Shown here one piece after another: positions 9,799 to 39,439 of a stretch of 64,000 nt of DNA; the first letter of the stretch is position 1; every line of letters starts with the position of its first letter. The stretch covers positions 434,001 through 498,000 of the forward strand of contig JAGPYM010000016.1 of the NCBI GenBank assembly GCA_020736575.1, written 5' to 3'. The stretch comes from Thelonectria olida (taxonomy: Eukaryota; Ascomycota; Sordariomycetes; Hypocreales; Nectriaceae). Position numbers and translations under genes: made by a program. The notes under the pieces are model-generated. The model ran no database searches. It worked only from the letters and a program-made list of their open reading frames with translations, and was not told the DNA's origin.

Positions 9799-12339
9799 CT
9801 AGCTAAGCTCGAATCGCCGCCTTCCCAGAGCATCTCGTTCAATTTCAGGCAAGGGCTTGCCAACCACATCCACCAAGATTCGGCTATCTCCACTGGGCAG
9901 AACTACAGTAAGCGTCTTCCACGGCGCTTTGAAGCCAGATTTCTCCTCCCTTGCAAACTTGGCATTGACTTGCGTGTCACTGGTCGTGTACGCCAAGGTA
10001 TACTGCGAGATTTTGTTCTTGGCCGCGGACGACACGCCATCATCTTCATACCAGGTGGTCGCATACCACTTGCCATTCGAGCCTTTTCTTGGCGGAAAGA
10101 TCTCGATAGCCCTGAAGTCATCTTTGGGGAGCTCGGCAGGATTCTCAGATTCTCCAGGCGACAGCACCTGGACATCTCTGCCGATTGGGATCGCCGAGCC
10201 AACCTTGGCAAGGACTGGGATACCGGCCCCGTGCCACTCAGCATCTACTGCAACCCATTGGCCAGCAGCAAAATGCTCGTACGGGGCATTGGTGTTGAAG
10301 AAGCCCTCGTCCTCTTCGGTGGCTTTGGGCAAGTAGACGTCCGCCTTGCTCGCGCCGGGCTCAAAGACGCCGCCGATGAGCAAAGCGTCACCAAGCCAGT
10401 ACTGGGTCTCTCCATCCATGATCTTGGGTGTCCAGACTTCAGGGTCGGCCTCGTATCCCCATCCTGTCCAGCGCTGAGGCGGAGTCGCGTGTTGATGGCT
10501 CTCCAACATGAGCGAGTATATGTACGGGATGAGCGCATAGCGACGCTTAATTGTCTTACGCACTAGATGGGTAATCTCAGGATGCATCCACGGCTCGATG
10601 ACATCGCCGACATTGTTGTCGTTGCCCGTCTTGAAGCAGTTGATGGCGAAGCGAGGCGAGTAGATGCCTTGCTGAACCCAGCGGAGCAAAAGCTCTGGAG
10701 ATGGTTGAGGGCCTTCGAATCCCCCGATGTCGTGTCCATAGCAGTGCATGAGACTCATACCAGCATTCAAGGAGATAGCGTTGGCGCCCTTCATGTTGGA
10801 CCAACTTGTGACGTTGTCGCCGCTCCATGAGCTGCACGCATATCGCATCGTGCCAGCTGTGGCGCTCCGGGTGAGGATAAAAGGGCGAAGATCGGGATCC
10901 GTATCAGCCAGGGCATCGTATGACGACTTTCCGTGCAACTCGGTGTGCAAGCTGCGGCCCCAAAGACCAACTTGTGGCCTCCCTTTGAGCTTCTCTGGAA
11001 CGACAAGCGAAGGCTCGTTAAGAGCACATTCCCAGTCGTCGTCAGTGATGGTATACTCGTTGTTATCGTTCCAGATGCAATCGATTCCTTCTTGACGGAG
11101 CTTCTTGACGCCTTCGTACCACCACTTGAAACCAGCTTCTGAAGTGAAGTCAATATGGCCGCCCTCGCCGCTTTCGCCGCCGCCGGCACTCCACAGACGG
11201 GTGATTGCCGTTTTCTTAGTGTTGGGATCGATGAAGAGTGCACCGGCTTTCTTCAGCTTCTCGTACTCGGGATGGTTCGCGAGAACATAGGGTTTGACGT
11301 TCGCGATCAGCCTCATTCCTAGCTTGTGGTATTCTTTGATGAAGCCCTCAGGGTCGGGGAATCTGTGTCGGTTCCACGTGAAGACGTTCCTGGTCTTGGG
11401 TGGCGTCTCTGCGACGGTGTATCCAGAGGACATCTGGTAGGCAGAACACGGGATATCGTGCTCTTTCATCTTGTGTGCAAGCTGGATGAGAGCCTCGGAT
11501 GCGGGAGGATCGTCCAGCATAGAGTACTTCATTCCTCCGGAGAGATATCCAAACGCCCATCTGGGAACGAGCAGAGGGAAGCCGGCCAACTGGGCATACG
11601 TCGTTACGATATCCTTCAGTGTCTTGCCGACAATCATATACTGCTCCAGTCCGCCATATTCCTGGCGGTAGACCTTGTAATACCCCCACATCCCGTCCAT
11701 CTCGGATCCAACTGAGTACTCGCCTCTGGCGTGAGAGGTAGAGAAGAGGGCCACGCATCCATCAGGAGTCGCATTGATCAGTAGAGGGATGTTCTTGTAG
11801 AGCGGATCAGTTTTGTACACATCGTATCCAAAGCTGTCAGTGGCTGACATTCTGAATCGACGGCCAGAGAGATTCATGGGGGCAGCCTTCTCGCCCAACC
11901 CAACATGGAGCGTTCCACGGTTGAACTTGGAGTAGTGGGCAATTCCGGCACCGTCGACAACGTACGAGCGATGAGGAACATCTTGGTGAAGGGGGTCGAT
12001 TTTGGACCCCGACAGCGAAATGGACACAAGTGGCGCGGATCCCTCCCAGTCTACTTTGGCAGTAATATCGCCGATGCGCATTTCTTTGCTGGTGCCGGTT
12101 GATTTCGAGGTGACACTGGCGAAGGTGCTTGGGGGTTCCACGCGAGGAACACTAGGATGAGGAGGGACTGGATGGCTCTCGGAAGTGAAGGTGGTTTTGA
12201 AGACATTGTCTCGAACCGCTTCGAAGGAGAACTTGAATGGAAGTTGCGCATCTTTGCTCTCGAGATGAAGTTGATGAGAACTATTGGAAAATTGAGGCTC
12301 AAGGGCCCAAGTCGAGGCGACACGTTCACGTTGAGGCAT
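9799..12339 (-). CDS. Glycoside hydrolase family 31 alpha-glycosidase (alpha-glucosidase/alpha-xylosidase type)
   Basis: A single uninterrupted 846-codon frame. The GH31 nucleophile motif is IDCIWNDNNEY, where the Asp before NNE is the catalytic nucleophile. The acid/base region is RSATAGTMRYACSSWSGDNVTSW, with the Asp of SGDN. The N-terminal galactose-mutarotase-like beta domain and the C-terminal beta domains are present at the usual length. There is no signal peptide, so the enzyme is probably intracellular. Substrate specificity within GH31 (glucosidase, xylosidase, other) is not decidable here. It is divergent from hxnY across a 1.5-kb region; nothing ties it to nicotinate metabolism. 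Confidence 0.9.
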   Translation of the reverse strand: MPQRERVASTWALEPQFSNSSHQLHLESKDAQLPFKFSFEAVRDNVFKTTFTSESHPVPPHPSVPRVEPPSTFASVTSKSTGTSKEMRIGDITAKVDWEGSAPLVSISLSGSKIDPLHQDVPHRSYVVDGAGIAHYSKFNRGTLHVGLGEKAAPMNLSGRRFRMSATDSFGYDVYKTDPLYKNIPLLINATPDGCVALFSTSHARGEYSVGSEMDGMWGYYKVYRQEYGGLEQYMIVGKTLKDIVTTYAQLAGFPLLVPRWAFGYLSGGMKYSMLDDPPASEALIQLAHKMKEHDIPCSAYQMSSGYTVAETPPKTRNVFTWNRHRFPDPEGFIKEYHKLGMRLIANVKPYVLANHPEYEKLKKAGALFIDPNTKKTAITRLWSAGGGESGEGGHIDFTSEAGFKWWYEGVKKLRQEGIDCIWNDNNEYTITDDDWECALNEPSLVVPEKLKGRPQVGLWGRSLHTELHGKSSYDALADTDPDLRPFILTRSATAGTMRYACSSWSGDNVTSWSNMKGANAISLNAGMSLMHCYGHDIGGFEGPQPSPELLLRWVQQGIYSPRFAINCFKTGNDNNVGDVIEPWMHPEITHLVRKTIKRRYALIPYIYSLMLESHQHATPPQRWTGWGYEADPEVWTPKIMDGETQYWLGDALLIGGVFEPGASKADVYLPKATEEDEGFFNTNAPYEHFAAGQWVAVDAEWHGAGIPVLAKVGSAIPIGRDVQVLSPGESENPAELPKDDFRAIEIFPPRKGSNGKWYATTWYEDDGVSSAAKNKISQYTLAYTTSDTQVNAKFAREEKSGFKAPWKTLTVVLPSGDSRILVDVVGKPLPEIERDALGRRRFELS

Positions 12340-13859
12340 GGCTGTGATCGAAGGTGGCCGCTTTCAATGCCAAGAGGAGAGGTATCTTGGGAGAACTCCC
12401 GTGAGGGATTTGTACTTGATATCTTCTCTCTAAACTCTCACTGACGATCACGTCGATGAATTAAATCGCGGCGGTATCGCAGGCAACCCCGCATTCTCAC
12501 GCATGTCAGGGATCACATGGGGTAATCCCGCTGTTTGTTTGGCTACAGTACAAGGGTGAAGCAATTATGTCAAGGTCGTGAGGTACATCTCTCTCCAGCT
12601 ACAAGTCAAGAAACATTAGGTATCTTCTTAGCGAGCAGGCGATGGGGGTTGGTCATGACTCTCCTCTCAAGTTGACGCGTCGTCACTGGAGTGGCCGGTA
12701 TTTGTGGAGTGGTTATGCGTTGCTGAACTGATTTCAGGAAGATTGAATAACCGACATTGACGATTCAATTGCCGAAGAGATCTGAATGCTACGTTTTTGA
12801 CTAATTGGGAAACCCGTTGCGCAAGGGGAACGACGGGACTTGTTCAGTTGCCGAGTTGGCAAAATCCGGGGACGTCGAGGCGCATTGAGGGGTATTGCAT
12901 CGGACTGAGATGTGCCGATCAAGAAGACCTGGGGAAGTGTAGGCGATTTATATACTATTCGGGTTGATGACTACTGAGTCTTGTGCTGGACATTGGGGGC
13001 ATGATGATCGTTTGGGCTCGTCTTCTGTTCTCACACGGTTGCTTTGGAACGGCATAACCGGCATGTTAGGCGCAGGTGCAAACCGATGCAGTTCTTGATC
13101 TGTCAAGGCGAAGCAGATGGGATCTCAATACACAACAGGAACAAAGATGACAGTAAAGGAGATGAAATGACTGCCATGGGAAGAGATTCCCTCCATCTTC
13201 ATGGCTAACAACAGTTCGGCGTCGGAAAATGAGACGCCGAAACGCGTTCAACTCCCCCTCACTCTTCCTTGGACAAGGTCGTATTAGTGTAAACCCCTCA
13301 TTAATCAGCATCTCCGAATGCCGATCTCGCATTCCCGTCCGTCTTGTATCGTGGGGGTCGGAATGGGCCGAAACGCCTTTTGAGGGAAAACAATTCATCC
13401 CCCAAGAGATGCCTGAATGGGAATGGACGACGCTTATCTTGGTTATCATCTAGAGCAGCCGTTGTTGGACATTGCTTGGTGACGCTCACACGCCCTCCCA
13501 CCTTTATCTCCGCGCAATCCGTCAAGCACTCACCAAGAGTCTTCCACCCCACTTTTGGGGTGCGCCCGAGTGTAGCCATGGTGACACACAGTTCAATCAG
13601 TACGGTTTCCTACGGTACCAATGGTGGTGCTGCTGCTCTGCTTGTCGACCATGTTAGCTAGTCAGGTTCGGGCGGAGGGGAGGGGAAGCCGTTGCGAGGG
13701 CTTCATCCCACTGTTCAAACAGATATAACATTCGCAGAGTTGACGCCATCACCAGCTTCAATCACATCCAAGACTCAGTCACAACTTACATCGAGAAAGC
13801 ACTAAACTCTTCTAATCACTCATCTGATCTCTCCGAGTTCATCCACACTATCCTTCACC
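12340..13859. other. Divergent promoter region between GH31 and hxnY
   Basis: 1.5 kb without a convincing gene. On the minus strand at 13545-13553 there is AGTGGGGTG, one base different from the AGTGGGGGA nonamer found upstream of the other hxn genes, about 300 bp before the hxnY start. The frames at 13066-13661 are mutually overlapping and have no domain. Confidence 0.5.
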
Positions 13860-14374
13860 ATGTCCAAGCTTGAAATTCCCATCATCGACTTCTCCGGTAC
13901 GTCTAAGAACCCTGACCTAAAAAGATAGACCTTATCTTAATCAATCTGTAGGCTTCTACTCTGGAAACCCCGCCGAGAAGCAAAAGGTCGTCGACCAAGT
14001 TCGTGCCAGCTGCCTCTACAATGGCTTCTTCCAGATCATCGGCCACTCGGTGCCACTGGAGCAGCAAAAGTTCGTCATGGACGGCGCGAAGAAGTTCTTC
14101 TCCATGCCCTTGGAGGAGAAGAAGAAGGTCTCCAAGGACAACAACACCTGGAACCGCGGCTACGAGATGTTGAGATCCCAAATCTTGGAGGAGGGCACTC
14201 AGCCCGAGTTGAAGGAGGGCTTCTACATTGGCGCTGAGATCCCTGAGTCGCACCCCTACTTCATCAACAAGAAACTCAACAGCGGACCTAACCAGTGGCC
14301 CGAAGGCCTTGGGGACGAGCTGGAAACCTTTCGCAACAGCTCCATGAAGTACTACAACTCGACTCTGCAGCTGG

Positions 14375-14382
14375 CCGGCGAC
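14375..14382. repeat. Left target-site duplication of the hAT element
   Basis: CCGGCGAC immediately precedes the left inverted repeat and encodes part of the Ala-Gly-Asp of HxnY. It is identical to the copy at 17445-17452; removing the element with one copy restores the reading frame exactly. Confidence 0.93.
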
Positions 14383-14408
14383 CATACCTGGGCGTTTGAG
14401 TTAACTCA
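14383..14408 (+). repeat. Left terminal inverted repeat of the hAT element
   Basis: 26 bp starting CATACCTGGGC and ending AGTTAACTCA. It pairs with 17419-17444 with two mismatches (positions 12 and 16). Confidence 0.9.
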
Positions 14409-14502
14409 TGAGTTTCGACCCTTTTAACTCACTCATATGAGTTACGGCCTAGCCATAACTCACTCATGAGTTTAACTCAGACTCATGAGTCAACTCACCT
14501 AT
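14396..14502. repeat. Left subterminal palindrome array of the hAT element
   Basis: About 107 bp made largely of ACTCA/TGAGT units in palindromic pairs (ACTCATGAGT, ACTCATATGAGT). Such subterminal arrays are the usual binding sites for hAT transposases. The mirror array is at 17321-17430. Confidence 0.8.
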
Positions 14503-14585
14503 AATGATCATGTGACATCGCCAGCTTCCCAAATAGGAAGTTGGTGATAAGAATCTATGGTATTGAAGTGCAGAAAATCGCCGCG

Positions 14586-16858
14586 CTATTCAATATCACT
14601 AATTTCTATATCAATATCATCATTAGCAATGTCCGGATCACATACTAGCCCCAGCCCACCGTGCCGAGTCCCGACAATATGCCCATTCCGCATCCAGTTG
14701 CCGAGACACTCAACTTCCTGCAGCCGCTCGCACGTCATCGACAGCCGGTCCCATGATGCGGTCCTACGAGCGCCTGAGAAGGTCCTTTCTGGCTCTGCCG
14801 ACTGAGGGCTTATCGAGAGTATATCGATGGCCATACGGCTAAGGCGTGGAAACTGCCGTCGTTGTTCAATGCGACACCACCACTCCAGAGGTTTGCAATC
14901 GATCTTGACAGCCGGAGAATTAATAAATGCGTCTAGGTTATCGCCATCGGTTGAAAGAGCCGTCTCGACCTCCATCTCCTGTAGCAATAGCTGTAGCTGC
15001 GAAGGCGGCTTCCCCGGCGCAGCTGGCATATCCTCCGGAGTAGTTTCTATGTCTCCATCGATATTGGTATTGTATTCCTCCTCCCATATTTGCCGGGCTC
15101 CCACAATCGCTGGATTAATCCACGCACTCTTCCAGTTCTTATCCAAGTATGCTTTTCGACAGCGTGGATCGAGAAGAAGAGCGGCGACGTAAACGGGAGC
15201 CTCATCAGACATAGAGTAGTATTTATCGAGTACAAACCATCCCATCTCGATAGAATGGAGCATACGGCTATCATGGAACTCCGGGGTCGAGTAGTGTATC
15301 TAACAAATTAGTTAAAGGCTGTCTCTTTAACGGAGATAGACCTTACCTTCGCTTTCTCAAAGTGGCTGAGAAGACCATCCATCAGCCGCAGCGTACTGCA
15401 GAGGCTCGCTTTATCGCCTTCTGTTATCAAAGTTGCCTCGGTAAAGGGCTGGAGGAAAGTATGCGTTTTCGACAGTATATCCCAGTCGGCGCCTGATAGA
15501 AGATGAGCACAGCCGATGTCCTTGTCATGGTCTACCATAAACTGGACGATCTGTGCCTTCTTATCGAGGGCGACACTGATAACTTTATACCATGAGGACC
15601 ACCGTGTTGCGTTATCGATCCCGAGACTGCGACCCACAGCTTCGCGCCAGTTATCACTATGGATTGGAGAGCTTCCAATCCAGACTGCGAGATGGTGGAG
15701 CTTCTGGAGAGCATTAATGCCTTCCCATCCGCTAAATTCTAATTGCTGAGTAGTCCTCTCTCTCGTCGGAGGTCTCTGCTGTCTCCCCTGGTTCTCCTCT
15801 GATGTGTGATCCACCGTGGTATCGGGTCCTGAAAGCGTATTCTCATTCAGAGCAGTAGAGAAGGTTTCGATAGACTGCGCACCAGCGGCGTTGCCGGCGG
15901 CATTAAGGGCAGCGCGTAAAGCTTCTTTCGAGCGCGCGAGAAGGAAAGCTTGAAGGGAAAGGTTAATAATATGGCCGAAACAGCGGACACGGCGGCGGAC
16001 AGGATCGAAGATTATCTAGACGAAACTCAGCTGGCACAGCCATAGAAATTTATCTTTACTTACTCCTCGCCCGTGAAGTAGCTTCTTTGATAAAGCTTCT
16101 AGGCAGGTATTGTTCGAGGATGCGTTATCCCCAGTATGATAACCCACGCGTCGAATTTCGAATCGCCCCAAGACATCAGCGATCAGGCCGGCCTGGGACT
16201 CGCCAGAGTGGTCTTTTCGACACTCTAGCAGACCTAGAAGCGCCTTTCGAAGTTTATAGCCCTTATCGACCCACTGTCCGCATACTGCAAGCATACCATG
16301 TCGGTGTGGTGATGTCCAGAGATCAGATGAGAGGTGAATCATCGAAATGGCAGATTGAAGGGACTCGGCCAACTGAGCAGCGTAGAACTCATAGCTAGCT
16401 GAGATGTAGCGCATCACTGTACGTCGGGAGGTAATCAGACTATCCTCGATGGCAGGATTACATGCTAGTGCTAGGTCCTTTATCTCATCCCACTCAACCA
16501 TCGAAAAGGCCACTCTGCGACGTGTGAGAAGGCTGATAAGAGCTTCGATGTAAGCCTGTCGATTGAAGGCATTCCGTAATGCCGCTTCGGATGGCGTAGT
16601 CGATGATGTGATATATACGTCGAGCGATTGCTGAGATTGATTCTGCCGGCTAGAGAGCCCGATCAGATATGGATGATTATTCCTTATGTGGCGCCGCGCA
16701 TTGCCCTTATAGCCATCCTTCCATGGCTTCGCCGTACAGTATAAGCAGACATATAAAGTGCGAGGCTTCGCCTTCTCTCTGGTGAAAAATCTCTCAATAT
16801 CGATGAAGTCGGGGGCGGAAGAGGGTGTCCTCGGTACAGACGAAGTTTCGGATGCCAT
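14586..16858 (-). CDS. hAT transposase with BED zinc finger
   Basis: Three exons (16858-16064, 16015-15347, 15299-14586) give 725 residues with no internal stop. The N-terminus has a BED-type finger (CLYC near residue 38 and HIRNNH about 20 residues on). The RNase-H-like core shows the first Asp in LSSDLWTSP, the second in TGDNASSNN and the Glu in SAEPERTFSGARR. RCFGHIINL and NATRWSSWY are conserved hAT insertion-domain landmarks. The C-terminal dimerisation region (PLEWW to LQEVECLGNWM) is complete. Intron 1 follows GRG and intron 2 follows FEKAK, both with GTAAG donors. The protein would bind the subterminal arrays and excise and insert the element in the nucleus. Its 5' flank (16859-17320) is non-coding element sequence and probably its promoter. 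Confidence 0.92.
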
Positions 16859-17320
16859 GGCGATGGCTTGATGGTATAGATAATGGATCGAGGCGATGAA
16901 GAGTCTGCCGATAAATCGTACTAGAAACTGCAGTAGCTACTCGGAAGACTTTTTTTACCTTAAGATTCTTGTCAATTTCTGATGGATCTGGATCATAGGG
17001 ATAGAAGCTCTTGATTCTCTATCTAATGAGTGGAAACAGGTCGGTTTCTTATACATAAGATGAATTGGTCCTCCGGGGCCGTTGTGTTTAAGAACTTGCT
17101 TTTTGGGAGACATAGGTGATACCAACCACTGACGGGAAGTCCGGACTTCCGGGCTGCCGGTCTGAACTGCCTGTCTGAACTGCTGGAAGACCTTCCTTCC
17201 GGTTTGATCAAATGTATGACCCTTTGGTCTGTTGGATGTGATAATTCTGAATATAGAGGGGTTGCGATAGATTAGATTAGATTATAGAGCGGGCTAATCA
17301 GACGCCAGGAACGCCGTTGT

Positions 17321-17430
17321 GAGTTTATGAGTTAACTCATGAGTTAGCAGCGATAACTCAGACTCAACTCATATGAGTTTTATGAGTTAGAGTTATGAGT
17401 TAACTCATGAGTTAGGTTTGAGTTAACTAA
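17321..17430. repeat. Right subterminal palindrome array of the hAT element
   Basis: Repeated ATGAGTTAACTCATGAGTTA-type units just inside the right inverted repeat. The composition matches the left array. Confidence 0.8.
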
Positions 17431-17444
17431 AATGCCCAGGTATG
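17419..17444 (-). repeat. Right terminal inverted repeat of the hAT element
   Basis: Reverse complement of the left end with two mismatches; the outermost 11 bases are identical. Confidence 0.9.
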
Positions 17445-17452
17445 CCGGCGAC
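17445..17452. repeat. Right target-site duplication of the hAT element
   Basis: CCGGCGAC directly after the right inverted repeat, followed by the continuing hxnY codons for Leu-Met-Arg. Eight bases is the hAT-typical duplication length. Confidence 0.93.
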
Positions 17453-18067
17453 TTGATGCGCGTGCTTGCCTTGTCTCTTGACTTAGATGAGGCCTACTTC
17501 TCCAAGTTTATGGACGGCGCTGTCGCTACCATGCGACTTCTTCACTACCCTACTCAGCCCAAGGATGCTGATGACAAGTTGACTCGAGGCATTGGAGCCC
17601 ACACCGACTTTGGTGCTATCACTATGCTCTTGCAGGACAAGGTGGATGGTCTTCAGGTTTGGGACCAGCAGAACTCGACTTGGATCGATGTAAGTCAGAG
17701 CTCATTCAATATCCCAAGAACACTAGTCTAATCAACTGAATAATAGGTCGCACCCACTGAGGGCGCTTACGTCGTCAACCTGGGTAACCTCATGGCCCGC
17801 TGGACCAACGAAAAGTACAAGAGCAACATCCACCGCGTCATCAACAAGTCGGGCAAGGAGCGCTACTCGATCCCCGTGTTTGTGTCTGGAAACCCCGACT
17901 ACCTCGTTGAGTGCATCCCTACCTGCAAGTCCGCCGAGACGCCTGCCAAGTTCGGTCCCGTGACGGTCGAGGAGGCTGTCTCAGCGGCTTACGCTGAGTC
18001 GTATGGACGGGCTCAGCTGTACAAGCAGGGTCTTGAGAAGATGACCCAGAAGGCTCAAGTTGCTTGA

Positions 18068-18557: not shown

Positions 18558-19462
18558 CTACCATTTCGTGACTCCGCCATCTACCAAGATATCACTACCA
18601 GTGCAGTATCTGCCGCAAATATTATGCATTAGCTCAAGTCTTTTCAACTTTGAACATTGAACATATTCGGTGACGTACCTGCTGGCATCACTGGCCAAAA
18701 ACACACAAGCTCCCTTAATGTCGTCAGGCTCGGCAACCCGGTGGTTCATAATCTCGTCCTTCCAACCCTCGAGAAGATGGGGGAAAGCAGCCGTCATGTT
18801 CGTCTTCACGTAGCCAGGGCTAATGGAGTTCACGCGAATGCCATAGTCGTTCAGCTCTGCAGCAATAGGCGCGACCATGGCGCGAACGGCGCCCTTGGTC
18901 CCGCAGTAGGCAGATGATCGCTGTGATCGGACTGCCATGTAAGACGCAATGCTGGCTACCAGGATAATGCTCCCGCACTTTGTGCCGTTTGCAATCATGG
19001 CCTGGGCAGCGAGCTTTGCAGCAAAGTAAACACCCTTGCAGTTCACCCCAAACAACCTCTCGAAATCGCCTTCCGTCGTGTCGAGAAACTCGACGTTCTT
19101 GTTCACGCCCGCACACCCCACAAGAACATCCAGTTTCCCGTCAAAGTCCTTCTTGACATCGATGAAGCCCGTCTCGAGACTAGACAGAGAAGTAACATCG
19201 ACGATGTAAGAGCGTACCTTGACTCCGTATTGGGAGGAAATCTGCTCCATGTCGGCTGAGGGAGGATGCGTCATGTCAAAGATGGCGACATCAGCTCCCG
19301 CTTCAGCAAGGCCTTGGGTAAAGGCGAAGCCACAGCCGCCGGCGCCACCGGTGATGATGGCAACGCGGCCTTTCAAATTGAACTGTAGACGATTCAGCAC
19401 GCAAGACCCTCTAGGTTCCCTTAACTTGAAGCTATTCTTCTAGTCTACCGTACCTGAGACAT
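18558..19462 (-). CDS. hxnW: hxnW: short-chain dehydrogenase/reductase
   Basis: Three exons (19462-19454, 19382-18679, 18609-18558) give 254 residues. The first exon holds only three codons (Met-Ser-Gln) before a GTACGG donor; I prefer it to the downstream MLNRLQ start because the splice yields the usual MSQFNLKGRVAIITGG opening. SDR hallmarks are TGGAGGCGFA (NAD(P) binding), VGCAGVNKN in place of NNAG, the catalytic Ser region ASIASYMA, the YCGTK active-site Tyr/Lys, and a C-terminus TGSDILVDGG. In the nicotinate pathway HxnW is the ketone/alcohol-interconverting step on a reduced ring intermediate; that role is taken from A. nidulans. The last intron is 69 nt with no in-frame stop, so its retention would insert 23 residues. 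Confidence 0.8.
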
Positions 19463-20776: not shown

Positions 20777-22055
20777 ATGGGTAAGAAGAAGGTTCTCGTC
20801 TGGTAAGATAGCCCCACGCTCCAAGCTCAAGCCCACCCGCTGACATGTTGCCTCCTTCGCCGCAGCTACGGTGTGGATATTGATGCCGTTGCTGGCTGGC
20901 TCGGCTCTTACGGTGGAGAGGACAGTACGAGCGATATTAGCAGAGGTAAGCTCCCATGTAGAAGATGGCTGCCAATTAGCCTCAAGATTGCTTGCTACAG
21001 TTTTGCAAGTAACTGACACGGTGTGTTGTGTCTTGCATAGGTCTGTGGGCTGGAACCATCGGCACGCGCCGTCTTCTAAAGCTCTTTGACAAGTACAACA
21101 TCAAGGCATCATGGTTCATTCCCGGCCACTCGCTCGAGACCTTCCCTGAGGAATGTGCCATGGTCCGAGATGCGGGACACGAGATTGGTCTCCACGGCTA
21201 CAGCCATGAAAACCCAGTTGATATGTCTCTCGAACAACAGCGAGATGTCCTCGACAAAACCTGGAAGATGCTGACGGAATTCTGTGGCGGCAAGCCTCCC
21301 AAGGGAAGTGTAGCCCCCTGGTGGGAGACGAGCGAGGAGGGCACTGAGCTGTTGTTGAGCTACGGCATCGAGTACGACCACTCCATGTCACACGAGGACT
21401 GCCAGGCCTACTGGCTGCGCACCGGAGACAAGTGGACCAAGATCGACTACTCCCAAAAAGCCGAGACTTGGATGAAGCCGCTCGTCAGGGGCAAGGAGAC
21501 TGGCCTGGTCGAGATTCCCGGCTCGTGGTATATCGATGACCTTCCTCCTATGATGTTTATGAAGAACTCGGCAAACTCACACGGATGGGTGAATCCAAGG
21601 TATGTCAAGCTGCCGCGAGGCTCGTTGACATAAATACTGATGTTTAAAAGGGACGTGGAAGACATTTGGAGAGACCACTTTGATTACTTCTACAGGGAAT
21701 ATGGTAGGTTTTGCTCCCTGAGACTTATACTTGACTAACGTGGTGTCGAAATAGATGAGTTTATCTTTCCGATGACTATCCACCCCGATGTTTCGGGCCG
21801 ACCTCACGTGTTGTTGATGCATGAACGCATCATTGAACACATCAACAAACACGAAGGCGTTGAATGGGTTACAATGGGCGAGGTAAGTATTTTGTCAAGC
21901 CGAACGACACTGGTACAACAGGTGTGCTAACGCTGCATCAGATGAGTGATTATTTCAAGAGCAAGAACCCTGTGCCAGAGGGAGCTCTCATGCCGGCGAG
22001 TAGAGAGGAGGTCATGAAGAAGTATGAGGATTGGAAAAAGACTCAAGCGTCATGA
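20777..22055 (+). CDS. hxnM: hxnM: CE4-fold cyclic imide hydrolase (polysaccharide-deacetylase-like)
   Basis: Six exons (20777-20802, 20866-20945, 21041-21599, 21651-21703, 21755-21882, 21942-22055) give 319 residues. The NodB/CE4 metal site is visible: the Asp in YGVDIDA and the two histidines of [10 protein letters not shown]. It belongs to the HpPgdA/PuuE-like branch ([34 protein letters not shown]), not to chitin deacetylases. It has no signal peptide and no chitin-binding module, which fits a cytosolic amidohydrolase. In A. nidulans HxnM opens the cyclic imide formed late in nicotinate breakdown, and its partner HxnN removes the amide. Here the two genes are adjacent and convergent, supporting the assignment. 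PuuE-type allantoinase is the main alternative. Confidence 0.8.
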
Positions 22056-22708: not shown

Positions 22709-24777
22709 CTATGCATCCCTCTTTGTACGAAGCAGGTCATCCACGACCTTGCCCGCAGCAAGCACCCTCTCCTCCTCGAGTTTACGACCTACAATCTGCA
22801 AACCCACAGGCAGTCGAAGAGACGCCATCTCGTCTCTATGGTTCTCCCACAACTTCGCATTCCATTCGTCCTCGGGCCCCCAGGCTTCAAATCCCCATGG
22901 CTCCTTGGCATCCTCGTCACAAACCGCTCCGCCAGGAATGACCAGCGCGGGGTAGTCGAGAAAGTTCCACACCTTGGTATAGCCGACCCAGCGACAGCCT
23001 TGGTGAGGCACGGCAGTGTGCGGCATGGGTGGCATCAGAATGATGTCTGCCTTCCGTCCAGTCTTAGATGAGCGGATGGAATCCCACTTCTCCAGGTAAG
23101 CTTGCTGAAGGTCGACCTTCTTCCTGTTGAGTTGCCAATACTCGTACACGGTAATGGGCTTTCCGCGGTTGACGAGTCGTTCGACGTGGGGGATAAAGGG
23201 CTCGCCTCCAGCTGCTATATCTCGGCGGATGTCTTCACCACCATCCACTGTATAGAATTTATCCTACGTCGAGGTCAGAGGTTGACGCTGTGGTGTGAGG
23301 AATTCGAGAAGGTCGAGAAGATTCATTGCTTACCATGACTCTGATGCACTGCTCGTGAAGTTCACCGTTCCATTCTATAACATCATGGCCGGCGTCCCGA
23401 AGAACATCAACAGCCTGTCGTAGGACCCGAGTGATGGGTGGTGTAGGCCGCACCACGCCGTCTTCAAACAGGACTCCAATTGTTAGTGGTCCGTTCAGAG
23501 TATCTGTATACATGTCTTCTCTCCAAGGGATCGGAGCACAGCGAGCATCCATATCCCATGGTCTGGCATTGATGAGTGAGGTCATGGTCAAGTGGATGGT
23601 ATCGAGACTGCGGGCCATGGGGCCAATCGCTGAAGGCACATGCTCTTGTCCTTCAGTGGACACAGGAACTCCTCGATACGGCAAACGGGCGCTCTAAGCA
23701 AGGTCTGTTAGCTGGGCAGACGGAGGCGAGTGAGGATGGTTCTAAAAGCTCACACTTGGTTTGAGGCCGTAAATGCCCATCATGTGCGATGGAATGCGAA
23801 TGCTTCCCCCAATGTCGGTTCCCCAGCCCAACATGCTAGCTTTGCACGCAAGCAGAGCCGCTTCGCCTCCCGTAGAACCTCCGGGAGTGTAGCCTCTGTG
23901 AACTGGGTTGGTCGTCAAGCCCCAGAGAGGATTCTCAGTCTCGCACCACTGGCAATGTGTTATCAGACTTGTACAACGTTAAAAGGTGTATAATGATAGC
24001 TTAGAACCTTACCATGATACTTTGAGGCAAATTTGTCTTTGCGATGATGACTGCACCCAACGATCGAAGCATCTTGACGACGACGGCATCATCCGATGCT
24101 GGAGCATTTGCCCTTCCTACATAGCCAATAGTAGTATCGTAGCCTTTGACGTTGAATTGGTCTTTCAAGGTAACTGGGACCCCGAGCAAGGGCAGGTTCG
24201 AGACTCTGCCTTCTGTCGAGAGGTGCTTGAGCTGTTCATCAAGTTGCGATGCATGTTGGAGAGCATCATGGAAGACGATTTCGGTGAGACTGTATAAACG
24301 TGTTAGACACGAATAAAAACTGCCTTTCTTTGAATCAAGAGTATAGACACACGATTGAGACTTACCAATTTGACTAATGTCATTGGGAAATCATGGTGAG
24401 ATTTCTTTCTTCACTTGGGTCCAGGGTAACATACCTCGGCGTGCACTTGAATAGCCCTGTTGCTCGAATAGTAAGCCAAGAGTACTTATTGAAACACGTT
24501 ACAATGACAGAGTTATGAGAGTGATATGGATGTTAAGTCATGGAAAGTCTTACCTTTTGATGTAAGCATTTGCAACCGCGGTACAAGTTGTTTTTCCCTT
24601 CACAAGCTGGTCTACTAATTCATCTGCGCTGGCCGTGTCAAGGAGAGCGCCATCTTGGGCAGTGTGTTTTCCATTCACTTCAGAAAACGCAGCCACTAAC
24701 TTGGCCTGGGTGGCTTTCTTTTGGGCGACGACCTCTTCCCAAGGTGCTTTTGGCGCTTCATCCGTTAAGAGAGGCAT
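22709..24777 (-). CDS. hxnN: hxnN: amidase-signature amidohydrolase
   Basis: Seven exons (24777-24554, 24456-24435, 24373-24366, 24289-24013, 23948-23754, 23693-23334, 23263-22709) give 546 residues. The Ser-cisSer-Lys triad of amidase-signature enzymes is visible: Lys in VTLKDQF, cis-Ser in PGGSTGGEAAL and the nucleophile Ser in GTDIGGSIRIPS. Exons 2 and 3 are only 22 and 8 nt; without them the AYIKR and CLTEIVFHDAL halves cannot be joined in frame, and with them the sequence reads RAIQVHAESNCLTEI, which matches the family. In the hxn pathway HxnN hydrolyses the amide released by HxnM, yielding ammonium. It shares an 844-bp divergent promoter with hxnV that has two copies of AGTGGGGGA. Confidence 0.85.
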
Positions 24778-25621: not shown

Positions 25622-27629
25622 ATGACGACCGCATCAGCAACCGATAATGGCAGCACAAACGGAGTTAGCAATGGCCACTCAGAGGAGAAATTCGATGTAT
25701 GCGTTGTTGGTGCCGGCCCTTCTGGCATCATGCTGAGGTATGTCCATCGTCTAATGCCAATATCAACCCCTGTCTGAGCCATTCAATCTAACCACCGAGA
25801 CAGCGCTCTGCTTGCCAGATTCGGCATGAAGGTCGAATCACTTGATGAGAGGCCCAATCAAACTGCAGTTGGCCGTGCCGATGGAATCCAGCCCAAGACC
25901 ATCGAGACATTCCAGATGCTCCGCGTGGGAGACGAGTTGTTCCGCACAGGTGTCAAAGTCCACGACATTTGCATGTGGAACAGTTCAAGTGCCAAGGGCA
26001 TCCACCGTCTGAGCCGCTCAGTTCACTACCCGCCCGAGATTGTCGATGTTCTCCAGCCTTACATCTTGCTCTGCCATCAGGGCATGGTGGAGGGCGTCTT
26101 CGTCGATGACCTTCGCAAGAGCGGCGCCGAGGTGAAGCGCAGCCACAGCTTCAAGACATACACCAGCGACGCCGAAGGCCCCCTGAAGATCAGTGCCGAC
26201 TGGGCTGAGCACGGTGAGCAGACTATTCTTGCTGATTATCTCGTTGGCTGTGACGGTGCGCGCTCTCTTGTGCGCAAGAGCATTCCCGACACGTACGCCC
26301 AGGGAACCCCTCACAACTCTGTGTGGGGAGTTCTTGACGGGGAGCTGGAAACGGATTTCCCTGACATTTGGAGCAAGACGGTCGTGTACTCCGAGGAGCA
26401 CGGCTCTGTGTTGATCATCCCCCGAGAGCGCAACATGACGCGTTTCTACATTGAGATGAAGACATCCGCCACATCAAAAGACCTCGGCCAGGACTATGTC
26501 ATGGAACAAGCTCGCTTGATCCTCGCTCCATACAAGATCCAGTGGCGCTCTGTCGAGTGGTTCGGCAACTACCAAGTCGCACAGCGTGTTGCCGCACGAT
26601 TCTCGGATCCCCAGCGAAGAGCCTTCATCGCGGGCGACGCCAGCCACACGCACAGCCCAAAGGCCGCCCAGGGCATGAACACCAGCATGCACGACTCTTG
26701 GAACCTTGCCTGGAAGCTCAACCTGGCGTCTCGCGGCCTCTCAAAAGATGGTGTTCTCCTCGAGAGCTACGAGCAGGAGCGAAAGAAGATTGCTCACGAC
26801 CTGATCAACTTTGACTTTGAGCACGCCAACGAGATCGCGCTCGGAGATGCGAAGCGTCTAGCGGAGAACTTTAAGAAGAACACGCGCTTCATCTCGGGAG
26901 TCGGTGTCGAGTACGGTCCGAACCAGATCAACCTGGCCATCGAGGGAGATCAAAAGGGCAGCGCGCTTCCAGGATGTAACTTGCCTCCGGCCAAGGTTAC
27001 GCGCTTTATTGACGCCGATCCCGTCGATATCCAGCTTGACATCCCTGTGTTGGGACAATTCCGTATTTACATTGTCTTGGGCAATGTCTTTGGATCTGCT
27101 GAGACGTCTTTCCTCATTGGCCTAGACAAGGGCATCGCATCAGACTCATCTCTCATGCATCGTCTGTCAGTAGCAGCGGCGGCATCGTACCAAAAGAAGC
27201 CGCGGGCGAAGAGAGCCGATGATGTCTATGTTCGCCCTGAGAGATACACCTCAGTCAGCGAACTGTTCACATATTCCTTGATCTGTAAGTCGTTTTCTCT
27301 CACAATTCTACAATTCTACAAACTCTCGCTAATATTTCAACCCAGCATCTGCGGATAAGAACGAGTTTGAAATCTCCTCGCTGCCGCCATTTCTGTCACA
27401 GAGCGGCTGGACTGTCTACCTGGACGACGTTCCCAACCTCGACACTCAAGGACGGACATGCACAGACAAGTGGCTCGGAGGCCTGGGAACAAATGAGGCT
27501 GCCATAGTTACTGTCCGACCAGATGGCTACGTCGGCGCCGTCCAGCGGTGGAATACGTCGGAGTCTGGGGCTGGAGAGGCTGCGGCTGGCTGGTTGCAGG
27601 AGTACTATGGGAGGTTCCTTGACGCCTAG
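25622..27629 (+). CDS. hxnV: hxnV: phenol 2-monooxygenase-like flavin hydroxylase
   Basis: Three exons (25622-25737, 25804-27284, 27346-27629) give 626 residues. The FAD site is [16 protein letters not shown], split by intron 1. [12 protein letters not shown] is the DG motif and [19 protein letters not shown] is the GD motif of aromatic-ring hydroxylases. The C-terminal ~190 residues form the thioredoxin-like domain typical of phenol hydroxylase, ending with [10 protein letters not shown]. The enzyme uses NAD(P)H and oxygen to hydroxylate an aromatic ring; in the hxn pathway that ring is a hydroxypyridine derived from nicotinate. It is divergent from hxnN. Starting at 25622 gives a Ser/Thr/Asn-rich leader of ~20 residues before the fold. 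Confidence 0.85.
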
Positions 27630-28912: not shown

Positions 28913-30742
28913 ATGTCTGTCGATTCAGAGAAGGGCAATGCCGGCAAGGGTCCTCAGGACCTGGCCCCCATTACCATCACCAACTCTCTCGAGCCCGGTG
29001 AGACTGTCGTCATTGACGATGCAGCTGTTCGAGAGTTCTATGGAAATGCTGTCGATGACTCCTACCGCCTGAAGTCTGAGCTGGTGTCTCAGCACTTGGC
29101 TGAGATTGGCATGGGAAAGTAAGTCATCCTACCTCGCTCATCTGCAGCTTGGAGCAGAACGGGTGTGCTGACAAGAACGTGTGCAGATTCCAATGGATCC
29201 TCTTCGTCGTCAACGGCTTTGGCTGGATCGTCGATAACTTCTGGAGTCAGGGCATCACTGCCGTCCGACCTCCAATTGCCAACGAGTTCACAGACATCAG
29301 CCGTCTCAGCTTCAGTTCCGTGGCCTACTACATCGGCCTCATCCTCGGTGCTTCCTTCTGGGGTACCACTGCTGATCTCATCGGCCGCAAGCCTGCCTTC
29401 AACGCTACTATCCTTATCGGCGGAATCTTTGCCTGCGCTGTGGCTGGAACCCAGAACTTTGTCGCCTTCTGCGGCATCTGGGCTGTCATTGGAACCGCTG
29501 CAGGTGGCAACGTGCCCGTTGACAGCATCGTCTTCCTCGAGTTTGTGCCCCAGAGCCATCAATGGCTGCTTGTCACTCTTTCTGCCTGGTGGAACTTGGG
29601 CCAAGTCATCGTTTCTCTGCTGTCTTGGGTCTTCTTGGCCAACTTTGCTTGCTCCGAGGACGATGCCCCTTGCCCTATGTCCGACAACATGGGCTGGTGA
29701 GTGACCTTCCCAAATGACGAGTTTGCTCCATCTCTGACCTTGATTTTTAGGCGATACCTGATGATCACTCTCGGTGCCCTCGCCATTGCCTTTGGTCTTT
29801 GCCGAATCCTCCTCTTCAAGATCCCCGAGTCTCCCCGGTACCTCATCTCCAAGGGCCGCGATGCCGAGGCCGTCGAGGCCGTCAACTACATTGCCCGCTA
29901 CAATGGAAAGCCTGAGAGCCTCACTCTGGAGATGCTCGAGAGCATCGACCGACAGTACAGCTCCAACCCCACGGCCACCAACGACAAGTCTGTTTCAGAC
30001 GACAATGCTGTCACGCGAACTCCCACCAAGATGTCTTACGTTCAGATCCTCAAGGAGAGCTTCAAGGACTATAACGCGAGCAGCTACAAGAGTCTTTTCG
30101 CCGGCAGGAAGATGGCTCAGCACACATCCGTCACCTTTCTCATTTGGCTAACTATTGGTATCGCGTATCCTCTCTACTTTGCCTTCATCACATCCTACCT
30201 GTCGACGAAGAAGACGTACCAGGCCAACACGGATTTCGACTACACCTACATGGTTTACTGCATCGTTTCGGCCGTTGGAGTCTTGGGCCCCGTTGCTGCA
30301 GGTTTCTGCGTGGAAACTCGCTTCGGTCGCAGGTGGATGATGGCTATTTCTGCCGTCTTGACGGGTGTTTTCCTGTTTGTCTATACCGTCGCCAAGACAC
30401 AGGCTGCGGATATTGGATTCCAATGTGCCACTGGTATATTGGGTAACTTTGGTAAGTCTCGCCAGCTAAATCTGATTCTTGACCACTTGCTAATGACATT
30501 TTCATGCAGAATATGCCGTCATGTACGCCTTCACTCCCGAGTCTTTCCCCGGTCCTGTTCGTGGTACTGGAACCGGTATTGCGGCGACGCTACTTCGATT
30601 TGGAGGTCTCGTTGCGTCCTTGGTTTCTACGTATGCAGGATACAGCGTTGTGCCTATTTACGCCAGTGCTGCGCTCTGGATCGTTGCAGGCATTTTCTGC
30701 ATTGGCCTGCCATTTGAGACTCACGGCCATGCCTCTATCTAG
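28913..30742 (+). CDS. hxnZ: hxnZ: MFS transporter of the NiaP/SV2-like type
   Basis: Four exons (28913-29118, 29187-29696, 29751-30451, 30510-30742) give 549 residues with twelve probable membrane spans. The long hydrophilic N-terminus, the early WILFVVNGFGWIVDNFW span, GTTADLIGRKPAF (MFS loop 2-3 signature), FKIPESPRYLISKGR, VETRFGRRWM and TPESFPGPVRGTGTG place it among metabolite/H+ symporters that include the bacterial niacin carrier NiaP and animal SV2. A. nidulans hxnZ encodes a carrier of this kind. The expected role is plasma-membrane uptake of nicotinate or a hydroxylated derivative. It is transcribed in the same direction as hxnV and hxnT. Confidence 0.8.
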
Positions 30743-31817: not shown

Positions 31818-33166
<1,349 letters not shown>

Positions 33167-33698: not shown

Positions 33699-35179
33699 CT
33701 ATAGGCTCGCCCGAGCTGGTGTGTTGTCCAACGCTGTACGAGTGTCCATGTTCCATCTAGCATCAACATCCTTCCACATGTCATAGGTCAGAAGCCATCT
33801 GCCTACACCGTGATACCTCCACGGGAAGGGATCCTCTCCCGTCTCGGGCGAATAAGGGAGAACTGGGGACTCTTCGCTGAGCCACTGCTCGTCCTTGCCG
33901 CCATACAGTTCAAACATCTTGTCGCGCTCCTCCTGCTCAGGGCCGTCTGCCAAGTGGTAGATCCACTGGTTGTAGGTTCCCCTTCGAACCACATTCTCGG
34001 TTCTCTCCCGACGGCAAGCCTCGTATACCTCGAGAGCCTTTTGCTTGGAGCTGGGAGACTTGTCCTTGAGTCTCGCCAGGCAAAGTCCTAGCACGCCGCC
34101 GTCCTCAAGAGCCATTCCAGCTCCACTGGCCAAGTAAGGGAGTGTAGCATGTACAGCGTCTCCAAGCATGGTGAAGGCGCCAGAGGGATCAGACCAGGTT
34201 GGTTCAAGGCCTGGTCGGATGCAGAGGCGCCATTTCAGAACAGAGTCGCACATGGCCACCATCTTTCTGATTCTCGGGTCCCAGCCATCAAAGTGTGCAC
34301 GCATCTCGCTGATGTCTCCTTTCAACGTGTTTCCGCCATCCAGAGGCATGTCATCTGGGACCAGAAGAACCATGTTGAAGAGCTCGCCACCCTTGAGCAC
34401 GTAGTTGACAGCATGCTTCTCAGGGCCAACCCAGTAGTTGACTTGGGGATTCTTGACGAACGGTGCCAGCTCCGGGTCTTTCAGCATATCGGCCGTGTTC
34501 AACAGGAGGCGGTAGGCGAGATCTCCCGTAAGCTCTGGGGGGTCTGATTTGCCGAGAAAGACTTCTCGCAGTTTTGAGTTGATGCCGTCGGCACCGACCA
34601 GTAAGTCTGTCGTCATGGTCTTTCCGTCGGCAAGATAAATGGTTGTCGACGTGCCATCTGCTGACACCTTGTAGTCGTCCACCTTTGCATTTGTGACGAG
34701 GTTTGCTCCCAGTTCGACAGCACGATCGAGGAGACACTTGTGGAGGTTGGCGCGATGAAAGTCCCAGAAGGGGAAGCCTCCAGTGGCAGCAGCGTACCCA
34801 TGATAGTCCATCTCGGAGAGGTGGTTACCCTTCCAGCCGATAAAGTTGCACTTCTGAGGCTTGGTGGCATATGGTTCGAGCTTGTCCTTGAGGCCCCAAG
34901 AGAAGAGTACTCGGGCGGCGTTTGGGAGAACTTGAATGCCAGCGCCGACTTCGCCGATGCTTGGTGCAGCCTCTAGGACTGTTACATCGTGACCAACGAG
35001 GAGCACTGAAATGGCTGCCCCGAGACCGCCCAAGCCAGCGCCCACGATAGTGACCTGAGATGAACAAGTTAGCGAAGAGTTTTGATGTCAAGATCGACGA
35101 GACCATTGCGTACATCTAGCTTGCTGGAAGCATCCCGCTGCATCTTTTGTTGAATGGGATAATTCGTTGAGTCGGCCAT
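33699..35179 (-). CDS. hxnX: hxnX: salicylate-hydroxylase-like FAD monooxygenase (6-hydroxynicotinate 3-monooxygenase type)
   Basis: Two exons (35179-35114 and 35054-33699) give 473 residues. The first exon is required: it supplies 22 residues and splices onto VTIVGAGLGGLGAAI, completing the FAD motif that a start at 35045 would cut. LLVGADGINSKLR is the DG motif and MLGDAVHATLPYLASGAGMALEDG the GD motif. Relatives hydroxylate or decarboxylatively hydroxylate small aromatic acids. In A. nidulans HxnX converts 6-hydroxynicotinate to 2,5-dihydroxypyridine. It is divergent from hxnR across a GATA-rich region. Salicylate 1-monooxygenase is the alternative if the gene were read without its context. 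Confidence 0.83.
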
Positions 35180-36417: not shown

Positions 36418-39400
36418 ATGGCGACAGTCGGTGAGAAGTCATTTGCCTGCACCCACCAGGGATGCACCAAACGCTTCACTCGCGCAGAGCATTTGCATCG
36501 CCATGCGCTCAACCATAATCCGGGTGGCTCGACGTGTTCTCTGTGCCGCGCTCACTTCAAGAGGCCCGATCTTTTGAGTATGCGCTCATCTTTCTCAGAC
36601 GTAAACATGACGTGATGTGCTGACCATTGTCTTCTATTAGAGCGGCATATGGACCGTCACCGTCAGAGGGATCTTGAAGCAGGAGGACCCGGTTGCGGCG
36701 TTCTCGACACCAGAAAGCGATCTTGGAAAGCATTGGATGGCTCCGTCGTCGAAAAGCGGCCTTGCAACGATTTGAACAAGAACAGGTCTTCGTCTGAGCA
36801 CAGTACCGAGGCTCAGCAACAGCCGTCACCAGAGCCTGAGCCCACCGACTCTAACAACACCATACTCGACTTATCCTTTGGCTCCAACAACGACCTGGGC
36901 CAAGAGACCGAGGCTGCTCTTGTTCTCGGCATCCGATCTGGGCATAACAGCATCTCCATTGAGAGCTCGGGAGACTTCGACAACACCTCGCCCATCCTTG
37001 GAGCCATCGCGCCAAATCACCAAGAAGACCCTGCTCTTGCTTACACTCAGTCCTGGACTGACCTTCTTCATTCGAGAGTATTGGATGAAGCTCTAGGTAC
37101 CACTGCCGAGCAGCTCCAGTACGACAGGATCTTCCAACCAGACACTGCCAGCTCCTTCAACATGCCATATACCACCGCATTGGACTACAACTGGTTATTC
37201 AACGTGGAAAAGTCCCCAGCCAACACTTTTGACGTCACCCTCCCTACTCATCAGTCTCCGGGCCTATTTGAACACGACAGTCAGGGCATGAACATGACGC
37301 AGCCTGCCTTTGCTGTCACGCCTGAATCCATGGGCAGCGCTTCGCAAGCTTGGTCAGATACCGAGAACCATGACCCAAAGCTGCAAACACACATCTTCGT
37401 CGACGCAAACACGCATGCGCAGACGCCCAGAACATTTACAAACAACACTGCCCCTATCACAGTGGAAGGATACCCAGAGAGAAGACCAAGGAGAAAGATG
37501 GCCGACCAGACAACTGGAGCTCAGAAGAATTGGACTCCCGGCACCCATGCCGTGCCCATCGAGTTCGAACGACCCCTATCAACTCTCCGGAAACCCCTAC
37601 CACTTCCCCAAATCACAGAGGTTCAAAGAGAACGTCTACTCAAGATTATTACTTCGGCCAATCCGACCCTTCCAGACCAGAGACACACCATACGAGACCA
37701 CCCTCTACTGGCAGTGCCGGCCCTTCAGTCTTACCTCGAACTATACTTTACCCACTTCAACACAGCCTACCCTCTCATTCATCTCGCCACCTTCAACATT
37801 CACCACGACGAACCTCTTCTCCTCTTGGCCGTGCTCCTTCTCGGCGCCACTTACTCCAGCAAAGATGCTCACCAGCTTGCCGTGTGTATCCACGACGTAA
37901 TCCGTCCAAGCATCTTTGCCCACGCTGGATTCTCCCCTCGACCAGAGCTGTGGACGCTCCAATGCATTTTGTTGGTTGAGTGCTTTGGAAAGTCAAGGGC
38001 TGGCCAGAAGCAACATGACATGAGCCATTTGTTCCATGGCCTCCTCATCAACCTCATTCGCCGGTCTGACTGCCAGTCAATTCGGCCGACTGGTCCGCCG
38101 CCAGGCTCTGGTGAAGACAACATCGAGGGTCTAGAGCGTTGTTGGAGGCGGTGGGCGGAAGCGGAATCGAAGAAAAGGTATACTCTACTCTTCGGTTGTT
38201 GAGATAATATGGAATACTGACAAATGCGATAGGCTTGCTCTGCTATGTTTCATGTGGGACACACAACACGCGGTTCTCTTCTGTCAGAGCCTCTGCATGT
38301 CTTCATTTGAGCTTCGCCTCGAGCTCCCATGCAGCCAAAGTATTTGGGAGGCCCGAGATCCCACATCCTGGGTATCCGCATGGCGATCTACTCTCTCGAC
38401 AGACCACAGGACCTTGTATCTTCCCACTCTCAAATCATACTTGACCTCCAACGTCCCGCGTCCTACGGGTCTCGGTGCCTTGTCCCGGATCCTTATTCTG
38501 CACGGCCTCATGTCCATCGCCTGGGACATGCAGCGCCGTGACCAGACGTCTCTCGGGGTTGTCTCTGACGGCAGTGGGAGTGGAAGCCGAGATGCATCCT
38601 GGCGCAAGCCCATCAGCAAAGCATACGATGTCTGGAAAGTCGACTTCGACGCCTATTGCACTGCTGCCATAGCGAGATTCCAAAGGATGCAGCAGGGACA
38701 GCAAACGGGTGGCTTCAGTCCACTGGACGACGAGGAGACGCAGCGCAAAGAATTCATGGCATTTGCAGCTGCGTATAATGCAGTATATCATTCAGCACAG
38801 GTGTTGCTGAACATGGATTTCTTGGATGTCCAGATCTACGCTGGGGCTCGGCATATTCTTGGACGACCGGTGCAGCAGAAGGATTACTTGCGTTCTGCTC
38901 AGGTAGTCAAGCGCTGGGCGTCATCGAGTCAGCCTGGGGGCTCGTTGTCAAACCCCAAAGACTCTGGGGGGGAACAGGCTTCTTCGCCCAGCCAATCCGC
39001 CGCGACTGCCGCGTGGCACGCTGCCCGGATGCTGCGTGAGTCGATGGGCATCTTGATAGAGTCCGACGCCATGAACCTCTTTCATGTGCCCTGGTGTCTG
39101 TACCTGGTCACTCTAACATGTTGGGCCTATCATCACGCCCGTCCATCCCGCGGGCGCAGGGGCGCTGAAGATGACGACGACGACCATGATTTCGAAGACG
39201 ACGAAATGGTTTGGGATCCCCACTCGGAAATGAAGGGTTTGTTGGCGAGCATGTCTGAAACGGTTAATCGCAAGGACTCTGTGCTCGCTTGGGAGCGCCG
39301 GCGGACGAACGGGCTCGTCTGGATCATGGCGGATGCTTTGACCAAAGTGCGATGGGGAATCGTGCATTCCGGCGTTGTGGTGTTGAGGGGCCTGGTGCCT

Positions 39401-39439
39401 CAGCGGTTGATCAACCAGTATGACGAGTACGAGGATTGA
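36418..39439 (+). CDS. hxnR: hxnR: two-finger C2H2 transcription factor with fungal-specific regulatory domain
   Basis: Three exons (36418-36577, 36641-38177, 38233-39439) give 967 residues. Finger 1 uses Cys11, Cys16, His29 and His33. Finger 2 uses Cys40, Cys43, His56 and His60 and is completed only by splicing intron 1. A long low-complexity acidic/Ser/Gln region follows. From about residue 380 comes a PF04082-type fungal regulatory domain (LELYFTHFNTAYPLIHLATF, then LALLCFMWDTQHAVLFCQSL), continuing to the C-terminus. This architecture (C2H2 pair plus PF04082, without a Zn2Cys6 cluster) is that of HxnR, the pathway-specific activator of nicotinate genes in A. nidulans, and the position beside hxnX supports it. 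The acidic Asp-rich stretch near residue 880 is unusual. Confidence 0.82.

Follow-up and report, generated by a model that had tools for sequence, protein, structure and literature searches.

A hAT transposon of a recent burst interrupts hxnY in a nicotinate-degradation cluster of Thelonectria olida

The window analysed here is a 64,000-nt stretch of Thelonectria olida DNA (contig JAGPYM010000016.1, positions 434,001 to 498,000), in which hxnY, a gene of a nicotinate-degradation cluster, lies in two parts with a hAT transposon between them. How recent is this interruption, and what should it have done to the gene? The best explanation as a whole, to which we give a probability of about 0.93, is an insertion from a recent burst of the element, with an hxnY allele that should be null. 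The sequence itself shows the insertion, shows that it is young, and shows both genes to be intact. We propose that a cut-and-paste hAT transposon entered hxnY in exon 2, reversed relative to the gene, and duplicated 8 bp of the target; that this copy is one of at least 20 identical ones produced by the burst; and that the HxnY frame, ending before the catalytic motifs, would give a null allele and a mild phenotype. The earlier note on this DNA had located the event at 13860-18067: that range is hxnY from end to end; the transposon itself occupies 14383-17444. The parts of the locus are as follows, in window coordinates.

13860..14382, plus strand: first part of hxnY, codons 1-156, one 55-bp intron; DIOX_N (Pfam)
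14375..14382, no strand: target-site duplication CCGGCGAC, left copy; exact, match length exactly 8
14383..17444, minus strand (that of the transposase, antisense to hxnY): hAT element, 3,062 bp, 20 identical copies in the genome
14383..14408, no strand: left terminal inverted repeat (TIR), 26 nt
14586..15299, minus strand: transposase exon 3, carrying the hAT dimerisation domain
15347..16015, minus strand: transposase exon 2, without a Pfam match
16064..16858, minus strand: transposase exon 1, start ATG at 16858
17419..17444, no strand: right TIR, 26 nt, 92% complementary to the left one
17445..17452, no strand: target-site duplication CCGGCGAC, right copy; exact, match length exactly 8
17453..18067, plus strand: second part of hxnY, codons 157-341, one 57-bp intron; iron/2-oxoglutarate ligand motifs

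The element lies in exon 2 of hxnY, and the reading frame is broken after LAGD, at codon 156. When the element and one duplication are removed, the joined gene reads as 341 codons followed by a stop. The features expected of HxnY were found in the two halves and in the joined frame: DIOX_N, 2OG-FeII_Oxy (Pfam; matched in both exons of the second part) and the conserved ligands. The second part holds all three motifs that we take to bind iron and 2-oxoglutarate: HxD from about residue 206, distal H from about 264 and RxS from about 274. The earlier note had described an intact hAT insertion after codon 156, with identical 8-bp flanks, gene halves joining to 341 in-frame codons with the ligand motifs, and an uninterrupted transposase; each of these points was borne out, by the TIRs, the duplication (exact at the window copy), the dimerisation domain and a transposase of 725 open codons. 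A lack of pseudogene decay in hxnY, also claimed there, is confirmed by comparison with 29 relatives taken from the homologue list (selected on rank and on a length >315 residues): hxnY departs from them at 0 of the 128 columns in which they are all identical, and is free of decay. Residue 155, which falls within the duplication, is Gly, a state found in 6/30 aligned rows against Ser in 16/30; since Gly is present in both copies of the duplication, this state predates the insertion.

The element presents the traits of the hAT superfamily (hobo, Ac, Tam3), namely an 8-bp duplication, short TIRs and a C-terminal dimerisation domain (Dimer_Tnp_hAT, PF05699: E 6e-14, 52 bits, cut-off 21.4). Its length falls inside the 2.5-5 kb given for the superfamily in an excerpt of PMC2874221, and no tested feature departs from it; the BED finger is only suggested, with zf-C2H2_12 in exon 1 below the cut-off (20.4 bits vs 27.3) and no BED match reported. 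The 725 transposase codons lie in three exons, the limits of which come from our own splice model. The transposase also contains SDLWTS and GDNASSN, which may represent the first two acidic sites of the DDE triad. A ACTCATGAGT-type motif occurs five times in the element: three times in the first 130 bases, twice in the last 130 and never between.

A fungal hAT element that splits a gene is already known from Fusarium oxysporum f. sp. lycopersici, where AVR1 is truncated by Hormin, a hAT derivative that also has an 8-bp duplication (excerpt of PMC3428301). The event described here is of an ordinary kind. In the open-access papers searched, we found neither a hAT insertion in an hxn gene nor a report of this element. 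Hornet1/Hormin and our element share the hAT type, the 8-bp duplications and, for Hormin, the splitting of a gene; however, Hormin has 759 bp and no transposase, against 3,062 bp with transposase here, and the Hornet1/Hormin TIR, CAGGGTTCAAATCCA, is unlike that of the element, CATACCTGGGCG (same excerpt). Membership in the Hornet1/Hormin family was rejected on the TIR, which is CATACCTGGGCGTTTGAG here.

The copy search covered the whole genome (52.5 Mb, 165 contigs) and scored its best candidates, so that the resulting count is a lower bound. At least 20 full-length copies, that of the window included, are identical across all 3,062 bases, for a total of 61,240 bases. An independent search with the left-end pattern found 21 places, the 20 identical copies plus one on contig C123, vs 0 for the reversed control. 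An exact 8-bp duplication flanks 17 of the 20 identical copies, again with that of the window, and each duplication is different. With zero changes in 61,240 bases, a star tree and assumed rates of 1e-9 to 1e-8 substitutions per site and year, the 95% bound on the age runs from about 49,000 to 4,900 years, to be read as an order of magnitude only. The young age proposed in the earlier note, which argued from one intact copy, gains strength from these 20. Contig C82, 1.2% of the genome, holds 4/20 of the identical copies (binomial tail 8e-5, the contig having been picked post hoc). Two of them are about 3 kb apart, and further hAT relatives also occur on this contig.

Two diverged copies bear on what preceded the burst. 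The copy on C123 differs from the burst sequence by 44 substitutions, keeps its own duplication and has three stops plus frame breaks; the copy at C82:160491 differs by 39 substitutions and is truncated at its matched ends. Repeat-induced point mutation was considered and rejected for both: the C>T plus G>A changes and the T>C plus A>G changes are balanced (15 and 14 of 44 in C123; 14 and 13 of 39 in C82:160491, without bias). Between C123 and the burst element 20 codons differ in amino acid, three of them being the stops of C123. At 5/20 of these codons C123 carries the state of the F. oxysporum proteins, so that it is not a dead descendant of the burst element: the two descend from a common older element. 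The element family was therefore already in the lineage when the burst, itself recent, took place.

We infer from the sequence that HxnY activity is lost. The interrupted first part runs through codon 156, takes on 14 element-derived residues and stops; since the frame ends before the catalytic motifs, the allele should be null. An ATG at 17432, inside the right TIR, is in frame with the second part, and a short C-terminal product without the first domain is conceivable. According to an excerpt of PMC9304392, the main nicotinate route of Aspergillus nidulans uses S, X, V, T, W, M and N, HxnY has neither an assigned reaction nor an established substrate, and deletion of hxnY diminishes the use of 6-hydroxynicotinate and the green pigment. 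No step in A. nidulans has been firmly assigned to HxnY, and we therefore predict a mild defect, in which 6-hydroxynicotinate would be used less well and 2,5-dihydroxypyridine handled differently, while growth on nicotinate as such would be kept. The proposal that the strain lacks the HxnY step is weakened, since it presumes an established one. No second near-identical hxnY was found in the genome: the second half matches itself and one 153-bp stretch at 78%.

Is the interruption reversible, and is it shared by the whole population? We infer that the element can still move by cut and paste, because identical copies stand at different sites. Precise loss of the element would restore the hxnY frame. 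hAT excisions, however, usually leave footprints, and an excision that leaves both duplications adds 8 bp and shifts the frame, so that excision need not restore the gene. That the element is possibly still excisable, as the earlier note had it, is plausible, but loses force on this account. The insertion could also be polymorphic or mosaic, with an empty or footprint site in some nuclei or isolates and a population not deficient in HxnY. An intact element of a recently active family speaks for this, as does the close pair on C82, which is what local hopping would give; we regard it as possible but doubtful.

A further question is whether the cluster was of any use when the element arrived. 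Downstream of hxnY, the window holds W-, M-, N-, V-, MFS-, T-, X- and R-like genes, which place hxnY in an hxn cluster and agree with the nicotinate-degradation cluster already proposed for this DNA. Homologues were compared for X and Y; the other gene letters follow from domain and order.

18558..19436, minus strand: hxnW-like short-chain dehydrogenase (Pfam; letter by domain and place)
21013..21630, plus strand: hxnM-like gene with a polysaccharide deacetylase domain, main exon (Pfam; letter by domain and place)
22709..24387, minus strand: hxnN-like amidase, several exons (Pfam)
25778..27355, plus strand: hxnV-like phenol 2-monooxygenase, main exon (Pfam)
29104..30714, plus strand: MFS transporter, hxnP or hxnZ type (Pfam)
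31970..33163, plus strand: hxnT-like flavin oxidoreductase, two exon frames (Pfam)
33699..35084, minus strand: hxnX-like monooxygenase, single open frame of 461 codons (Pfam and homologues)
36616..39436, plus strand: hxnR-like transcription factor, two overlapping exon frames (Fungal_trans; letter by domain and place)

On the other side of hxnY, an 854-codon open frame on the minus strand (9799-12363) forms its divergent neighbour; we presume it to be glycosidase-like, from a motif recognised by eye. The N/V and M/W pairs are divergent, as they are in an excerpt of PMC8478523. According to the same excerpt, HxnY of A. nidulans (AN11188) has the same two Pfam domains and stands in the same kind of cluster, but adjoins hxnP, whereas hxnY here adjoins the glycosidase-like gene and is split by a transposon.

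It is conceivable that the cluster had lost its use in this lineage beforehand, the insertion then being carried along by drift. The molybdenum-hydroxylase domain expected for hxnS was not found on the contig, and hxn gene loss is common in Sordariomycetes (excerpt of PMC8478523). On the other hand, the genome has three molybdenum-hydroxylase loci, on C75, C92 and C133, one of which may be hxnS; the matched hxn domains stand in open frames; hxnX keeps its 461 codons in one open frame, 82-86% identical to its named relatives; and hxnY is undecayed. We consider this explanation unlikely.

Some points weigh against a recent burst insertion with a null allele. The evidence comes from one genome assembly. 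An HxnY-like paralogue on C76, 59% identical over residues 181-330 of the Ilyonectria protein, could compensate in part for the loss of hxnY and might soften its effect. Three of the 20 identical copies (C81:613505, C98:317260 and C82:432259) have no duplication. Finally, assembly or gene conversion could have raised the identity of the copies, in which case the insertion need not be young. That identity is total across so many bases is what such an artefact would give. Nevertheless, the 17 different exact duplications among the 20 sites favour separate insertions; the 44 and 39 substitutions of C123 and C82:160491 imply that differences were not ironed out generally; and the halves of hxnY, which are unique sequence, are undecayed. 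An artefact of this kind is very improbable. As for the three copies without duplication, they look as if a flank had been lost or rearranged. Reciprocal recombination between copies was rejected as the cause, since no left duplication matches the right one of another copy, nor its reverse complement.

Another very improbable explanation, removal of the element as an intron (donor at 14394, acceptor after 17439, leaving a 24-nt in-frame insert of 8 residues in an otherwise complete HxnY), gives a stop-free reading and has a precedent in Ds1, a maize hAT element acting as an intron (titles cited in PMC3260210), but it would need a weak donor, GTTTGA, with no GTRHGT or GTAHG donor within 13952-14600, and an intron of about 3 kb vs the 55 and 57 bp of the two hxnY introns, made of an element that is antisense to hxnY and has a gene of its own.

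The burst of identical copies affected other genes as well. Ten other identical copies have at least 200 open codons around them, and their flanks were searched as 18/20 pieces (two had <16 codons). Both flanks of the C144:1562309 copy match a fungalysin M36 gene, and both flanks of the C2:662977 copy match MatE, so that a fungalysin gene and a MATE transporter gene are split. Only one flank was matched at C82:345369 (DUF6570), C107 (short-chain dehydrogenase) and C103 (DUF2961), and the remaining five copies gave no match in the flank pieces searched. Across the joined flanks, at least 200 open codons are found at 11/17 of the duplication-bearing copies vs 41% of 500 random window positions. 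Since this control is one gene-rich window, a genic insertion preference is not claimed.

Where did the element come from? Transposase homologues were considered as the best 120 of 163 hits, from a capped set of 7,996 scored candidates. Among these 120, the nearest are F. oxysporum proteins, with 95.0, 93.9, 92.7 and 92.1% identity over 400-488 aligned residues. A quick tree, built from the query and 33 selected hits, puts the query in a group with one F. commune protein and five from F. oxysporum (SH-like approximate likelihood ratio test, SH-aLRT, 99); the 92-95% identical transposases of the F. oxysporum complex (P0126, P0125, P0130 and P0127), whose models are partial or differently spliced, fall in this same supported group. 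The sole Dactylonectria protein in the tree, from Dactylonectria estremocensis, is 85.8% identical over 499 residues. Among the matches listed, the best full-length relatives reach 84% and 82% (metagenomes) and 81% (F. oxysporum f. sp. raphani), with no full-length relative at 95%.

The host genes behave differently. Full-length HxnY is 89% identical to the proteins of Dactylonectria macrodidyma and Ilyonectria robusta and 76-80% to three Fusarium proteins; its residues 1-156 are 86-87% identical to Dactylonectria and Ilyonectria proteins, and its second half has best matches of 90-92%. HxnX is 82-86% identical to Ilyonectria, Neonectria and Dactylonectria proteins (best match 90%), and 77% to that of F. 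oxysporum. Because the best HxnY and HxnX matches fall there, the host is placed in the Ilyonectria/Dactylonectria/Neonectria group. Thus, the transposase is closer to F. oxysporum (92-95%) than to Dactylonectria (86%), while the reverse holds for these two host genes.

This pattern suggests horizontal transfer. The element may have moved between the F. oxysporum complex and a relative of Neonectria and Ilyonectria, one lineage then undergoing the burst to at least 20 copies, one of which would have produced a natural null allele of hxnY within an hxn cluster that is otherwise free of decay. We put this forward tentatively, at somewhat less than even odds. Against it, the comparison takes in two host genes at the protein level and partial F. 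oxysporum models; F. oxysporum also has more distant members of the element family; and old parallel element lineages with patchy loss could imitate the same pattern.

Further similarities were observed. The C-terminal part (residues ~709-930) of an F. oxysporum protein that is fused to a hAT transposase is matched at 88-90% identity at C109:75158, C113:13983 and C48:67, and at 58-68% at C111:1268298-1269455; together with the transposon, these matches hint at a wider exchange with F. oxysporum. Within the element, the stretch upstream of the transposase start (window 16973-17253) is 82-91% identical in more distant relatives, e.g. on C93, C101, C102, C110, C118, C128 and C141, whose transposase DNA is only 66-68% identical. 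Capture, exchange or a constrained promoter may lie behind this pattern.

In conclusion, the locus is a candidate for a clean, natural loss of function in HxnY, which is conserved but has an unsettled role in nicotinate breakdown. It also brings to light an intact fungal hAT element with a burst that looks datable and a transposase that resembles those of Fusarium more closely than expected. If the transfer is true, the 17 sites with exact duplications would be markers for the onset of the spread of the element and for its present movement.

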